DNA of 44,885 nt from Bacillota bacterium (GTDB lineage Bacteria; Bacillota; Sulfobacillia; JAUYEF01). Below the pieces are notes generated by a model. The model was not told the origin of the DNA. It was given only the letters and a program-made list of their open reading frames with translations, and did not search any database. Shown here in pieces: positions 30,731 to 44,885 of the stretch (the stretch's first letter is position 1; the number at the start of each line of letters is the position of its first letter). The stretch lies in contig JAUYEF010000099.1 of the NCBI GenBank assembly GCA_030691635.1, forward strand, positions 1 through 44,885. The letters are read 5' to 3'. The position numbers and the translations under genes were made by a program.

Positions 30731-35691
<4,961 letters not shown>

Positions 35692-39755: not shown

Positions 39756-40211
39756 TCAAGATCCATACAGCAGGCGCACGTACTCAGGTGGCTCTTGGCC
39801 GAGGCTTTGCACCAGTTCACGGTCAGCAGTCCAAAGCTCGACTGCGTTCCACCTGTCCTCAGCAGAGACCTCGGAAACCGCGAGGAAAGCAGCGTCATAC
39901 ATGCCGGCAAGGGTGAACTTGGCCGCGATCTCCCAGGTTATCTCCTGGATCCTCCTGTCCTCCAGGTAGTCTATCGACAATGAAAGAAAGCGAGCCCACC
40001 TGGCATCCGCCTCAGACTCGCTGAGGAGTCCCGCCTTCACTTTCTTTCTGAGGACGGTACCGACCTCAGCCCACGCGAAAGCCGGCGCAACCAGCCTGTG
40101 TCCTCCGCTGACGATGCGCCTCAGGAGAGCAGTGGCTTCGGCACTACCCTCTTCAGGCACCAGGACCTTGACCAAGACGCTGGTATCCAGACAATAGGTA
40201 GCTCTAGCCAC
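39756..40211 (-). CDS. PIN-domain ribonuclease toxin (VapC-like)
   Basis: A 151-residue PIN domain nuclease with the four acidic catalytic residues in place: D9 (L-D-T-S-V), E49 (A-W-A-E-V), D106 (Y-D-A-A-F-L-A) and D130 (T-A-D-R-E-L). VapC toxins cut tRNA or rRNA when free of their antitoxin. It overlaps the upstream antitoxin gene by 8 bp and is transcribed with it. Target unknown. Confidence 0.9.
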   Translation of the reverse strand: MARATYCLDTSVLVKVLVPEEGSAEATALLRRIVSGGHRLVAPAFAWAEVGTVLRKKVKAGLLSESEADARWARFLSLSIDYLEDRRIQEITWEIAAKFTLAGMYDAAFLAVSEVSAEDRWNAVELWTADRELVQSLGQEPPEYVRLLYGS

Positions 40212-40458
40212 GGCGGGTCGTCCTTGTTCTCAGTTCCCTTATGGTTGGAGTGGAATCCGGCTGAAGGCCACGCTTCTCCAATAGCAGGCGTTCCTGCTCG
40301 ATCTGGTTCAAGAGACGGATCTGCGCTCTCATCGAGACTTCCTTCTCCACCGCAGCCACCATGAGATCATTCATCGAACCGCCGTAAGCGGCCGCTTCTT
40401 CGCGGACTTTATCAAGGAGACCTCTCGGAACTCGGATAGTGAACTGCTCACGCTCCAT
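40204..40458 (-). CDS. Ribbon-helix-helix antitoxin
   Basis: An 84-residue protein whose first 45 residues form an RHH fold: the strand E-Q-F-T-I-R-V-P, helix L-L-D-K-V-R-E-E-A-A-A-Y and a second helix after G-G-S-M-N-D. The remaining C-terminal tail would wrap the PIN toxin. The ATG follows AGAGG. Upstream are a sigma-A promoter (40505-40533) and an overlapping palindrome, the expected autoregulation. Confidence 0.88.
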   Translation of the reverse strand: MEREQFTIRVPRGLLDKVREEAAAYGGSMNDLMVAAVEKEVSMRAQIRLLNQIEQERLLLEKRGLQPDSTPTIRELRTRTTRRG

Positions 40459-40857: not shown

Positions 40858-41637
40858 GTGTTCATAGCGACTCGCGTTTACGCGCTCCTGACCGCCGTCA
40901 TCATCGTCGTCGCCATGTTCTATAACCTGAACCTCGCCAAGAAGGGCAAGAAGCTCTACCTGCGGCGCATCGCGGGCCTCGACGCGCTCGACGAATGCGT
41001 CGGGCGCGCGGCCGAGATGGGCCGCCCGATCCACGTCACCCCAGGCCTGGGCGGCCTGACTGGGACTTCCGCGCCGCAGATCCTTGCCGGGCTCGAGATC
41101 CAGTCGTACCTGGCCAACAAGTGCGCGACCTACGACGTCAGGCTTTTCTGCAGCGTATCCGAGCCTGAGGTGCTGCCGGTGGCCCAGGAGATCCAGAAGG
41201 CCTCCCATGTAGCCGCCGGCCGTCCTGACACCTACCGAGAAGAAGACGTGCGCTTTCTGTCGCAGAGCCAGTTCGCTTTCGCCAGCGCCATCATCGGCAT
41301 CATCGAGCGAGAGCGTTGCGTCGCCAGCGTCATGATCGGGGCGTTCGCCGCCGAAGCGCTCTTCCTAGCCGAGAACTCCGCGCAACTCGGCTGCATAACC
41401 ATCGGAGGCGCGACGAACCTTTACCAAATCCCGTTCTTCATCGCCGCGTGCGACTACACACTCGTGGGCGAAGAGGTGTTCGTCGGTGGAGCGTACGTCT
41501 CGCAGGACCAGGCCAAGATCGCAGGACTCAGGGCCCAGGACATCGGCAAAGCCCTGACGATAGCGCTGCTGATCGTGGTGGCCCTTTACACCACCTTTAC
41601 CGGCGATAAGAGCCTCGTCAAGATCCTGAACATGTAG
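40858..41637 (+). CDS. DUF6754-type membrane protein (operon gene 1)
   Basis: A 259-residue protein matching the family annotated as DUF6754, whose function is not known. One N-terminal membrane helix (about 8-22) and one C-terminal helix (about 238-254) flank a Rossmann-like alpha/beta region with characteristic stretches H-V-T-P-G-L-G-G-L-T-G-T, S-E-P-E-V-L-P-V-A-Q-E, G-A-F-A-A-E-A-L-F-L-A-E, I-G-G-A-T-N and F-I-A-A-C-D-Y-T-L-V-G-E-E. The start is GTG behind GGAGGTGG; the frame opens earlier at 40657 but without coding character. It leads a four-gene operon with 4-12-bp junctions. No catalytic residues can be named. Confidence 0.8.
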   Translation: MFIATRVYALLTAVIIVVAMFYNLNLAKKGKKLYLRRIAGLDALDECVGRAAEMGRPIHVTPGLGGLTGTSAPQILAGLEIQSYLANKCATYDVRLFCSVSEPEVLPVAQEIQKASHVAAGRPDTYREEDVRFLSQSQFAFASAIIGIIERERCVASVMIGAFAAEALFLAENSAQLGCITIGGATNLYQIPFFIAACDYTLVGEEVFVGGAYVSQDQAKIAGLRAQDIGKALTIALLIVVALYTTFTGDKSLVKILNM

Positions 41638-41648
41638 GAGGTGAGGAC

Positions 41649-42269
41649 ATGCGAAAAGCGCTGCCCACAGCGATACTGAGTTTTGTGGCGACGATCATCC
41701 TGGTGGACTACTGGTTCAAGGTGCCCGTGATCAACAACACGGCGAAGGACATAACCACCTGGGTGAGCCTGATAGCCAATGTGGCCCTCGGCCTGGGCGC
41801 CGTGAACCTTCTGCTGGTCCACTCGCGCCACATACGGCTGAAACGGCAGGAATGGGGCAACAGCGCCGTGCTGATAGCGCTCATGCTCTTCGTGGCGGTC
41901 GTTGGCATCGCCCGGTCGAGCAACAGCCCGACGTACCGCTGGCTCTACGACAACATCAACGTGCCGATCGGCTCCACCCTGTTTGCGACGGCGGCTTTCC
42001 AGATCGCCTCTGCCTCCTACCGGACCTTCCGGGCAAGGAACGTCGAGGCGGCCCTGCTCTTGCTCACAGGCATCTTCGTGATGCTTGGTAAAGTCCCGCT
42101 CGGCGAGATGATCGCTTCGTGGATGCCCACTTTCGCGCAGTGGATCCTCGACGTATGGAACACCGCAGCGCAACGAGGCATCATGATGTGCACGGCCATC
42201 GGCTTGATCATCATCTCGGTCCGCGTCATCACAGGCATGGAACGCGGCCACTTCGGCTCGGGCGAGTAG
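41649..42269 (+). CDS. Polytopic membrane protein of unknown function (operon gene 2)
   Basis: A 206-residue, very hydrophobic protein with about five to six membrane helices and a basic loop H-S-R-H-I-R-L-K-R-Q near residue 60. I do not recognise a family. A conserved-looking loop W-L-Y-D-N-I-N-V-P-I-G-S lies mid-protein. The ATG follows GGAGGTG at 5 nt, 11 bp after gene 1. It probably forms a membrane complex with the other three products. Confidence 0.78.
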   Translation: MRKALPTAILSFVATIILVDYWFKVPVINNTAKDITTWVSLIANVALGLGAVNLLLVHSRHIRLKRQEWGNSAVLIALMLFVAVVGIARSSNSPTYRWLYDNINVPIGSTLFATAAFQIASASYRTFRARNVEAALLLLTGIFVMLGKVPLGEMIASWMPTFAQWILDVWNTAAQRGIMMCTAIGLIIISVRVITGMERGHFGSGE

Positions 42270-42281
42270 GAGGGGACAACC

Positions 42282-43130
42282 GTGAGCACATACGAGAAGT
42301 TGCAGGCCATCGACAAGCGTGTGATCTACATCCTCCTGGCACTCTCGATCGCGGTGCCACTCCTGTTCCCCCTCGGGTTGCCCTTCTCCGTGGGCGCCGA
42401 AGTCAAGAACTCGTATGACTGGATCGAGAAGAACCTCAACAAGGACGACCTGGTCCTGTTCTCTTACGATATTTCCACGGGAGCGATGCCTGAGCTCGGG
42501 CCCATAACCACAGCCGTGATGGCGCACCTGGCCAAGAAGAGCGTCAAGATCGTGGGCATAGCCACGATGACGGACGGCGTCATGATGGCGAGACAGTTGT
42601 ACGCGCCGTTCGCGAAAGACCTTCCTTACGGTGAGAAGTTCGTCAATCTGGGCTTCCTGGCAGGCGGCGAATCGGGCCTGTCGTCGTTCCTCCAGAACCC
42701 CTACAACGTGTTCAAGGCAGACGCGGACGGCAAACCCATCGAGTCCATGCCGGTCATGAAGGGGTTCAAGGACGTCAAGGACATCAAGGTGATGATCTCG
42801 GTGAACTGCGGGCCGGTCGGCGGCGCTTCCATCGAGCAATGGGTCCGCCAGGGCTTCGTGACTCACAAGAAGCCTGTTTGGGTCGGTCTGAACGCGGTCA
42901 TGGCTCCAGGGTCGATGCCCTACTACCGTTCCGGGCAGTTGACCGGGTATATCGCCGGCATCAGGGGCGCGGCCGAATATGAGACACTGGTCGGGCGCGC
43001 CGGCCTTGGGACTTCCGCGATGGACGCCCAGTCCATAGCACACGCCCTGATAATCATCTTCATCGTCCTCGGCAACGTGGGCATGATGGCCATTAAGCGC
43101 AGCAAGGCCAAGGGGGGTGCGATAAAGTGA
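42282..43130 (+). CDS. Membrane-anchored alpha/beta-domain protein (operon gene 3)
   Basis: A 282-residue protein with a helix near residues 15-35 and a second near 255-275, enclosing one soluble domain. The domain alternates strands and helices (D-D-L-V-L-F-S-Y-D, S-V-K-I-V-G-I-A-T-M-T-D-G, K-V-M-I-S-V-N-C-G-P-V-G-G, P-V-W-V-G-L-N-A-V-M), a Rossmann-like pattern. Gene 1 has the same layout of two terminal helices around an alpha/beta core. The start is GTG behind AGGAGGGG. It overlaps gene 4 by 4 bp (GTGA). No known family recognised. Confidence 0.78.
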   Translation: MSTYEKLQAIDKRVIYILLALSIAVPLLFPLGLPFSVGAEVKNSYDWIEKNLNKDDLVLFSYDISTGAMPELGPITTAVMAHLAKKSVKIVGIATMTDGVMMARQLYAPFAKDLPYGEKFVNLGFLAGGESGLSSFLQNPYNVFKADADGKPIESMPVMKGFKDVKDIKVMISVNCGPVGGASIEQWVRQGFVTHKKPVWVGLNAVMAPGSMPYYRSGQLTGYIAGIRGAAEYETLVGRAGLGTSAMDAQSIAHALIIIFIVLGNVGMMAIKRSKAKGGAIK

Positions 43131-43723
43131 ACAACAGTCCTGCCATCCTGGCGGCCGCCGCCTGCACAATCGTGACCTTCACGTTCCTGTGGAAGTCCAA
43201 CCCGGCCTATCGTCTGGCGGAGCACGTGCTACTGGCCATCTCTGCCGGGCATGCCATAACGATGGGGTACAACAACCTGCGGTCGATAGCATGGATCCCC
43301 ATCACTCAGAAAGGGCAGTACTCGCTGCTCATCCCGCTCATCCTCGGCGCGCTCCTCTACGCGCGTTACATCAAGAGCGTCGCCTGGCTGAGCCGCATTC
43401 CGCTTGCGGTGATGATCGGCTGCGCGTCGGCCCTGGCGCTCAGAGGTTCCATCCAGTCCCAGTTGCTGCAGCAGGTCGCGGCAACGGCCAGCCTCCAAAA
43501 CCTTGACGCCATCCTGGTCTTCCTCGGGGTGATCGTGACTATCTCCTACTTCACATTCACGTACAAGATCAAGGGCTCGGCCGCCGCAATCCCCATGCTG
43601 GGCAGGTGGGTCATGATGATCGGGTTCGGAGCGGCCTTCGGCGGCGCCGTCATGGGTCGTCTGTCGCTGGTCGTCGGCCGTTTCCAGTTCCTCTTCGGCG
43701 ACTGGCTCGGCTGGATGAAATAG
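43127..43723 (+). CDS. Polytopic membrane protein of unknown function (operon gene 4)
   Basis: A 198-residue protein with about six to seven membrane helices, similar in size and character to gene 2 but without obvious identity. A loop G-Y-N-N-L-R-S-I-A-W-I-P lies after the second helix. The start is GTG, overlapping the stop of gene 3. A terminator hairpin at 43738-43761 closes the operon. Confidence 0.78.
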   Translation: MNNSPAILAAAACTIVTFTFLWKSNPAYRLAEHVLLAISAGHAITMGYNNLRSIAWIPITQKGQYSLLIPLILGALLYARYIKSVAWLSRIPLAVMIGCASALALRGSIQSQLLQQVAATASLQNLDAILVFLGVIVTISYFTFTYKIKGSAAAIPMLGRWVMMIGFGAAFGGAVMGRLSLVVGRFQFLFGDWLGWMK

Positions 43724-43737
43724 CGGGAGTCGTGGTC

Positions 43738-43770
43738 GGGGCCGTCCATCTGGGCGGTCCCTCTCTTATT
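43738..43770 (+). terminator. Terminator of the four-gene membrane operon
   Basis: GGGGCCGTCC (43738-43747) pairs with GGGCGGTCCC (43752-43761), ten pairs including two wobbles, loop ATCT, followed by TCTCTTATT. It starts 14 bp after the last stop codon. Confidence 0.75.
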
Positions 43771-43837: not shown

Positions 43838-44885
43838 TTGACCAGATATGACTGGAAATCCCTTGAACAGGCCGTACGATGCTCGATGGACGAGCATCAC
43901 ATACCGGGCGTCGCCATCGCCGTCGCAGAGAAGGGGCACGTCATCTACGAAGGCGCATTCGGCGTGCGGAACCTAGAGACTGGCGAACGGGTCAGCCCGG
44001 ATACTGTGTTCGGAATAGCCTCTGTCAGCAAGTCTTTTACCGCGATGGCCATAATGCAGCTCCAGGACCAGGGCCGGCTTTGTGTGGACAACCCCGTCGC
44101 CAGGTACTTGCCGGAGTTCAGGATCCGCGGGCTTGAGGATGCGAGCGCGGTGCGCCTGCATCACCTGTTGTCCCACAGCACAGGTCTGCCGCCCTTCAAG
44201 CGTCACCCGGAGTACAACGTGCTCAGCCAGCACATCGAGTACATCGCGACAGCGGACTACGAGCTGCTGGGGAAGCCGGGCCAGTACTTCAGTTACTGCA
44301 ACGACTCCTTCCTGGTGCTGGGGGCGGTCATCGAGCGGGTCATGGACAAGCCGTTCACGGACCACATGAGGGAGAGGGTATTCGAGCCCATAGGCATGAC
44401 GCGCACGACCTACTGGACGGAAGATCTGGCCCGCCTCGGCGACGTCACAGATCTGTACCAGTACGACAAGGAATCCCGCAGCCATGTCCGACAGGAATGG
44501 CCGGACCTCGGCAACCACAGGGTGAGCGGAGGAATCCGTTGCAGCGTCAGAGACCTCTTGCGCTATGCGTCGGTTTACACCACGGAAGGTGTCATTGACG
44601 GAAGACGCATCATCTCTGAGCACGCGATCTGGAGGATGCGCCAGCCGGTGGTGGAGGCAGGGCGTAACAGCCACTACGGCTACGCGCTGAACATCCACCC
44701 AGGATACGAGGGCGTCACCCTGGTCAGCCACGGGGGCTCTCTGCCGGGCGTCGCGTCACATTTCGGCTACCTGACCGAGAAGGGTATTGCTGTCGCGGTG
44801 CTGACGAACGTGGGAGGCGCGCCATCGAAGGCTCTGTGGCTTATGGCGGTGAATGCGGCTCTCGGCCTGCCTGTGAAGCAGAAGC
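43838..44885 (+). CDS. Serine hydrolase, beta-lactamase class C/esterase family (partial)
   Basis: The reading frame from a TTG at 43838, behind AAGGGTGG, runs open for 349 codons to the window edge, so the 3' end is missing. Family motifs: S62-V-S-K65 (the nucleophile S-x-x-K), Y153-C-N155 (Y-x-N) and S-H298-G-G (in place of K-T-G). Such enzymes include D-aminopeptidases, esterases and penicillin-binding-like proteins; most are not resistance enzymes. No signal peptide is seen at this start, so it may be cytoplasmic or have an earlier start. It is separated from the membrane operon by a terminator. Confidence 0.88.
   Translation, partial: MTRYDWKSLEQAVRCSMDEHHIPGVAIAVAEKGHVIYEGAFGVRNLETGERVSPDTVFGIASVSKSFTAMAIMQLQDQGRLCVDNPVARYLPEFRIRGLEDASAVRLHHLLSHSTGLPPFKRHPEYNVLSQHIEYIATADYELLGKPGQYFSYCNDSFLVLGAVIERVMDKPFTDHMRERVFEPIGMTRTTYWTEDLARLGDVTDLYQYDKESRSHVRQEWPDLGNHRVSGGIRCSVRDLLRYASVYTTEGVIDGRRIISEHAIWRMRQPVVEAGRNSHYGYALNIHPGYEGVTLVSHGGSLPGVASHFGYLTEKGIAVAVLTNVGGAPSKALWLMAVNAALGLPVKQK

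Follow-up and report, generated by a model that had tools for sequence, protein, structure and literature searches.

A recurrent four-gene cassette headed by a DUF6754 gene very probably encodes an obligate membrane complex, with about 28 diverged copies in one Bacillota genome and a possible role in the uptake of amino-acid derivatives

A contig of 44,885 nucleotides from a Bacillota bacterium (the window, i.e. the whole stretch of DNA that was analysed) carries a compact operon of four genes, G1 to G4, and the question raised by this locus is what its four products, only the first of which belongs to a catalogued family, do in the membrane. G1 is a full-length member of DUF6754 (PF20539), matched above the gathering score over profile positions 6-249 of 257 (E 2.4e-77, 260 bits, cut-off 27), and Pfam covers this one protein only. 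No Pfam or NCBIfam family above cut-off was found for the window proteins G2, G3 and G4. When relatives were scanned singly against Pfam, those of G2 gave scattered weak matches to unrelated membrane families, none of them consistent, the 85 relatives of G3 gave no family, and one of 45 relatives of G4 gave a weak match and the others nothing. A sequence search of the PDB with all four families returned nothing useful, G2 having no match and G4 no convincing one. The literature search found no paper mentioning DUF6754 or PF20539, and no description of the partners G2-G4, the cassette, its topology or its expansion was found in the literature or databases searched. An anti-phage defence system was rejected for lack of any PADLOC match (0 families for all four proteins). 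Long open reading frames that looked like G2-G3 fusions in four loci (L014, L063, L065 and L068) proved to be long G3 genes with extensions or insertions.

Table 1. Features of the operon and of its downstream flank (positions in the window)
Feature	Position	Strand	Remarks
G1, DUF6754	40858..41637	+	259 aa ORF
G2, polytopic membrane protein	41649..42269	+	206 aa ORF
G3, anchored Rossmann-like protein	42282..43130	+	282 aa ORF
G4, polytopic membrane protein	43127..43723	+	198 aa ORF
Terminator-like hairpin, operon end	43738..43761	+	10 pairs, 8 G-C; T-rich tail
PF00144 serine hydrolase (beta-lactamase/aminopeptidase-like)	43886..44884	+	E 1e-69; runs off the window

The layout had been read from the sequence as four genes, the first three separated by 11 bp and 12 bp and the last two overlapping by 4 bp, closed by a terminator, and the coordinates of the open reading frames agree with it exactly (Table 1). 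The stem and T-rich tail of the hairpin behind G4 bear out the terminator; folding of the 86-nt stretch around it gave z = -2.5. Shine-Dalgarno-like sequences were seen by eye upstream of G1, G2 and G3 (GGAGGTGG, AGGAGGTG and AGGAGGGG, respectively). The four-gene arrangement is not due to chance, since the same order recurs about 28 times in the own genome of the window and in most of the loci fetched from other phyla.

One scan of genome contigs confirmed 348 relatives of G1, and 79 loci from it were kept for comparison. These loci span Bacillota, WOR-3, Poribacteria, Armatimonadota, Zixibacteria, Fermentibacteria, Coatesbacteria, Thermotogota, the archaeon Culexarchaeum and others. A six-frame profile search found the exact order G1-G2-G3-G4 in 52 of the 79 loci, the rest being tandem, contig-cut or shortened. 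The distribution is patchy, with G1 present in 18 genomes of a wider draw of 250 from the phylum. Among 61 genomes of the class, G1 and G3 occurred together in 24, G3 only in one and neither gene in 36, and the G1/G3 counts within the class were closely matched (7/7, 4/4, 9/10 and 10/11, with 27/29 in the own genome). The two counts were also equal in all but one (3/2) of 16 genomes from other groups, and the archaeon carries seven of each. Where the operon has been split into G1-G2, G3 and G4 (genomes G307, G309 and G311) or G4 has been detached (genomes G313 and G314), all four genes remain in the genome. The sequence-only reading had staked its proposal of a dedicated membrane complex in part on the co-occurrence of G2-G4 with G1 across genomes, and this preset prediction held. 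Conserved order, matched counts, persistence after splitting and the correlated divergence described below all favour such a complex, and we infer that the four proteins very probably assemble into an obligate four-subunit membrane complex.

The own genome (G000; 3.84 Mb in 451 contigs, 96.8% complete and 5.3% contaminated) gave 27 matches to G1, 29 to G2, 29 to G3 and 32 to G4, with a few fragments among them. The genome holds about 28 diverged cassettes, which make up about 2% of it, in comparison to 0-11 copies in relatives. Gene calling on 25 fetched stretches of this genome always gave the order G1-G2-G3-G4 unless a contig end intervened; one tandem pair was seen (L100), and the median intergenic gaps in cassettes were 17, 13 and 3 bp. 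The median pairwise identity between paralogues was 43% for G1, 36% for G2, 34% for G3 and 38% for G4. The distance matrices of G1-G4 over 25 paralogous cassettes correlate with each other (r 0.48-0.70; p = 0.0005 each, 2000 permutations), so the cassettes duplicate and diverge as units. In the G1 tree (FastTree; many branches weak) the own copies form no single clade and are mixed with copies from other families of the class, with 17 changes in comparison to 24.7 in shuffles, which indicates old subfamilies and not a recent burst. Recent duplication or spread by mobile elements was rejected for most copies because the paralogues are mostly 26-50% identical and intermixed with those of relatives. 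Contamination is an unlikely source of the copy number, as the fetched cassette contigs resemble the window in composition (mean dinucleotide distance 0.039, compared with 0.124 for other genomes). A partial relic with G2, G3 and G4 (G000:C66:13413-14555) and a G4 with an internal stop (G000:C177:5335-5682) suggest birth and death of cassette copies; two further partial matches (C228:714-968 and C252:95-262) lie near contig starts and are possibly just cut.

Confident AF2 models were obtained for G1 (pLDDT 94.5, alignment of 82 relatives) and G3 (pLDDT 95.5, alignment of 85 relatives). The G1 model comprises a membrane helix (residues 4-28), a six-stranded Rossmann-like domain whose first helix is 39-54 and first strand 58-63, and a C-terminal membrane helix (218-248). 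The G3 model likewise consists of a membrane helix, a six-stranded Rossmann-like domain (first helix 39-51, first strand 57-63) and a membrane helix. The common order of elements, i.e. membrane helix, helix, six strand-helix units and membrane helix, confirms the earlier impression that genes 1 and 3 have a common architecture. G2 has about six spans by the hydropathy and K/R profile of 116 relatives and about six are also predicted for G4, so the claimed likeness of genes 2 and 4 holds as well, in size and in number of predicted spans; the two models and the family-wide hydropathy together uphold the alternation of anchored alpha/beta proteins with polytopic ones. The origin proposed for this design, duplication of a two-gene unit, did not find such support. 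Profile-profile comparison was significant neither for G1 with G3 nor for G2 with G4, whether with own paralogues, with family alignments or against column-shuffle nulls; G2 and G4 showed a weak in-register similarity with a probability of 6%. One profile score above all column shuffles was discarded, as it came from 40 columns aligned end to end out of register. Since sequence profiles give no significant homology within either pair, the duplication is unproven, as is common descent of G1 and G3, for which the modelled fold order is the evidence. A fold search of both models against the PDB gave no match at E <= 1e-3 and retrieved generic Rossmann-like folds only, a glycosyltransferase and a ligase among them.

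The orientation of the four proteins was predicted from the K+R bias, taken as the N-side minus the other side, with span limits set manually from family hydropathy in 97-128 relatives. By this measure the G1 domain lies inside in 113 of 128 relatives and the G3 domain outside in 96 of 112 (mean bias of the domain side +2.4 for G1 vs -2.6 for G3), and the bias of G4 is opposite to that of G2 in 83 of 97 (means +4.9 for G2 vs -2.4 for G4). G2 is accordingly predicted to be N-in/C-in and G4 to be N-out. In several G1 relatives from other phyla the first helix is preceded by a signal-peptide-like start and an FN3-like domain, extensions that would put the N-terminus outside and leave DUF6754 inside. 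The sites of large insertions in G2 (L018) and G3 (L063, L065 and L068) are predicted to be outside, in agreement with the topology. Because of the opposite K/R bias of G1/G3 and of G2/G4 the unit resembles a pair of antiparallel halves, and G1+G2 and G3+G4 probably have opposite membrane orientations. In WOR-3, Poribacteria and Fermentibacteria (L012, L020, L036, L058, L077 and others) the extra N-terminal segment of the DUF6754 proteins resembles a signal peptide followed by an FN3 domain.

Paired antiparallel subunits have a precedent in the paired SMR genes, where more than 95% of adjacent pairs show opposite K/R bias and an antiparallel heterodimer is formed (PMC9574504). Like the paired SMR and the Fluc-type dual-topology proteins (PMC9574504, PMC3755343), in which such a bias sets opposite directions of membrane insertion, the cassette encodes subunits of opposite K/R bias in one operon, both in G1/G3 and in G2/G4. 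Unlike them, it has subunits of about 200-280 aa, two kinds per half and alpha/beta domains on both faces, and it bears no sequence relation to either. There was no SMR Pfam match, and the polytopic proteins, at about 200 aa, are predicted to span the membrane 6 times, in comparison to about 100 residues and 4 spans in SMR proper. A second likeness, in proposed logic, is to the ABC, TRAP and TTT importers (the latter two reviewed in PMC5812351), in which an outer binding domain is combined with two polytopic subunits. The cassette differs from such binding-protein importers in that G3 is anchored by two helices and the predicted cytosolic G1 has no recognised ATPase. No ABC ATPase Pfam match was found in the four proteins, and no DctM/TctA or DctP/TctC match in the four proteins and the relatives of G2-G4. 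Apart from the DUF of G1, the cassette thus resembled none of the known families and systems it was compared with closely enough to be assigned to them. A large paralogous set devoted to scavenging is known from the Bug binding proteins of Bordetella (PMC11452294).

The gene neighbourhood offers hints of a metabolic role. In the window a PF00144 hydrolase gene follows the operon co-directionally, 163 bp downstream and behind the terminator, and is a candidate metabolic partner; PF00144 genes also adjoin the cassettes in L092, L109 and L136. In 8 of the 17 own-genome cassettes that could be scored, the first downstream gene encodes an amidohydrolase, of D-aminoacylase or other type, or a PF00144 protein. 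With own genome and relatives taken together, hydrolases of six families occupy the first downstream position in 17 of 61 cases, as against 8 of 125 genes at least three positions away (p = 1e-4). As the hydrolase seeds were chosen from own-genome neighbours, only the test on relatives alone is independent, and it gave 9 of 44 against 5 of 97 at the same distance (p = 0.008). Examples are L095 (26 bp downstream), L102 (73 bp) and L142 (43 bp; from a different family of the class), while in the archaeal L134 a hydrolase lies upstream and divergent. The hydrolases inspected (L095 and the PF00144 protein of the window) start without an evident signal peptide. Other cassette neighbours include M20, M28 and S9 peptidases and the amino-acid catabolic LamB_YcsF (5-oxoprolinase type) and FTCD. 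Most cassettes adjoin genes other than hydrolases. The hydrolase link is weakened by the richness of the own genome in amidohydrolases, 81 pieces of it matching family PF07969, which is striking for 3.84 Mb. The window also encodes an aromatic amino acid lyase, an amidohydrolase, a formate-THF ligase and SpoIIE, and its gene content would fit a spore-forming amino-acid fermenter of the Bacillota type. On the upstream side, a PIN-domain gene with an Arc-like gene upstream, their ends overlapping (39756-40458, minus strand), is likely a toxin-antitoxin pair beside the operon, and a long predicted gene (about 1170 aa) lies at 32179-35691 on the plus strand.

No conserved functional neighbourhood was found in the loci fetched from groups outside the class, where the neighbours are unrelated (DHQ synthase, sulfatase, C25 peptidase, AdoHcy hydrolase and M48). 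The G1 open frame of two WOR-3 genomes is preceded at 0-2 bp by the end of a gene for a gingipain-like peptidase (C25) that bears a secretion sorting tail (L020:3084-6590 and L035:2-2698). In five loci from WOR-3 and Thermotogota MAGs (L007, L008, L010, L021 and L027) a G1-G2 pair is followed by the next gene 2-4 bp on, which in L007 encodes a class I/II aminotransferase; G3 and G4 lie elsewhere in the genome for pairs of this type where checked. L001 (11018-13941) and L002 (11017-13931) carry a MutL/GlmL-type gene (PF13941) and then a gene for a 370-aa protein without a Pfam family, relatives of which are also found beside the cassette in three loci of other phyla (L050, L067 and L077).

The best explanation of these observations as a whole, one we hold at somewhat below an even chance, is a two-half antiparallel uptake complex for amino-acid derivatives. 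G1, with its predicted cytosolic domain, would pair with G2 (6 spans, N-in), and G3, of the same architecture with the domain outside, would pair with G4 (6 spans, N-out). A small substrate would be bound by the outer domain of G3 and translocated along a pseudo-symmetric path of G2 and G4 in inverted orientation, and the strongly conserved cytosolic domain of G1 would free it or couple transport. Each paralogue might serve one substrate of a related class, likely candidates being derivatives of amino acids, for example N-acyl or D-amino acids, lactams or small peptides. The predicted cytosolic hydrolases encoded next door would then open these compounds. We infer transport by the four-protein complex with confidence that is evenly balanced; its direction and energy source are presumed, and the assignment of amino-acid derivatives as the substrate class is tentative. 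No energy module was recognised, Pfam finding DUF6754 only, in G1. The presence of recognised transporter genes (MFS, MatE or solute-binding protein) beside some cassettes weakens the transporter reading.

The transporter reading is also weakened by the conservation of G1, which would suit an enzyme too. Among 82 relatives of G1, 8 positions are invariant and many others nearly so (R50, E53, D199 and E206, with Q also among the near-invariant residue types), and the conservation of G1 exceeds that of G3; in G2, R125 is invariant in 51 relatives. In a membrane-bound enzyme complex G1 would be the catalyst at the inner face, working on a substrate that is lipid-linked or delivered by the membrane; G2-G4 would serve as a scaffold, and the paralogues would act on different substrates. 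The enzyme-like residues and the glycosyltransferase and ligase among the fold matches of G1 agree with such a role; no catalytic family was recognised by sequence or fold, and two like domains on opposite faces would be unusual for one reaction, so we consider it unlikely. One alpha/beta domain per membrane face, many paralogues and a G3 more variable than G1 would also be compatible with a transmembrane sensor, in which G3 binds a ligand outside and signals via G2 and G4 to G1, the paralogues being receptors. This appears rather improbable, given that no output domain (kinase, cyclase or HTH) was recognised in G1, no regulator gene recurs beside the cassettes and two 6-span subunits seem excessive for the purpose. 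An ion or membrane-energetics module of general use (channel or pump), its hydrolase neighbours incidental in a hydrolase-rich genome, would agree with single copies in many genomes, unrelated neighbourhoods and the retention of one copy even where the operon is broken up, but it hardly explains about 28 diverged copies in one genome or the downstream hydrolase enrichment also seen in relatives, and is similarly improbable.

Returning to the uptake complex, it is possible, though doubtful, that the cassette represents a new class of membrane transporter, with antiparallel hetero-halves, an alpha/beta domain on each face and an expansion in one bacterial lineage to about 28 versions, each specific for its own substrate, that scavenge amino-acid derivatives. 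If the complex is a transporter, its architecture would be new and would provide a natural instance in which a whole operon is built of inverted paired halves; demonstrated transport would define a new transporter family rather than a new kind of process, and the hydrolase neighbours suggest concrete substrates. If it is not a transporter, it would still be an obligate membrane complex whose roughly 28 paralogues lend themselves to the mapping of specificity. Three of its four families are without a database model, and yet all four are inherited together with great strictness, in different phyla as well as in an archaeon.
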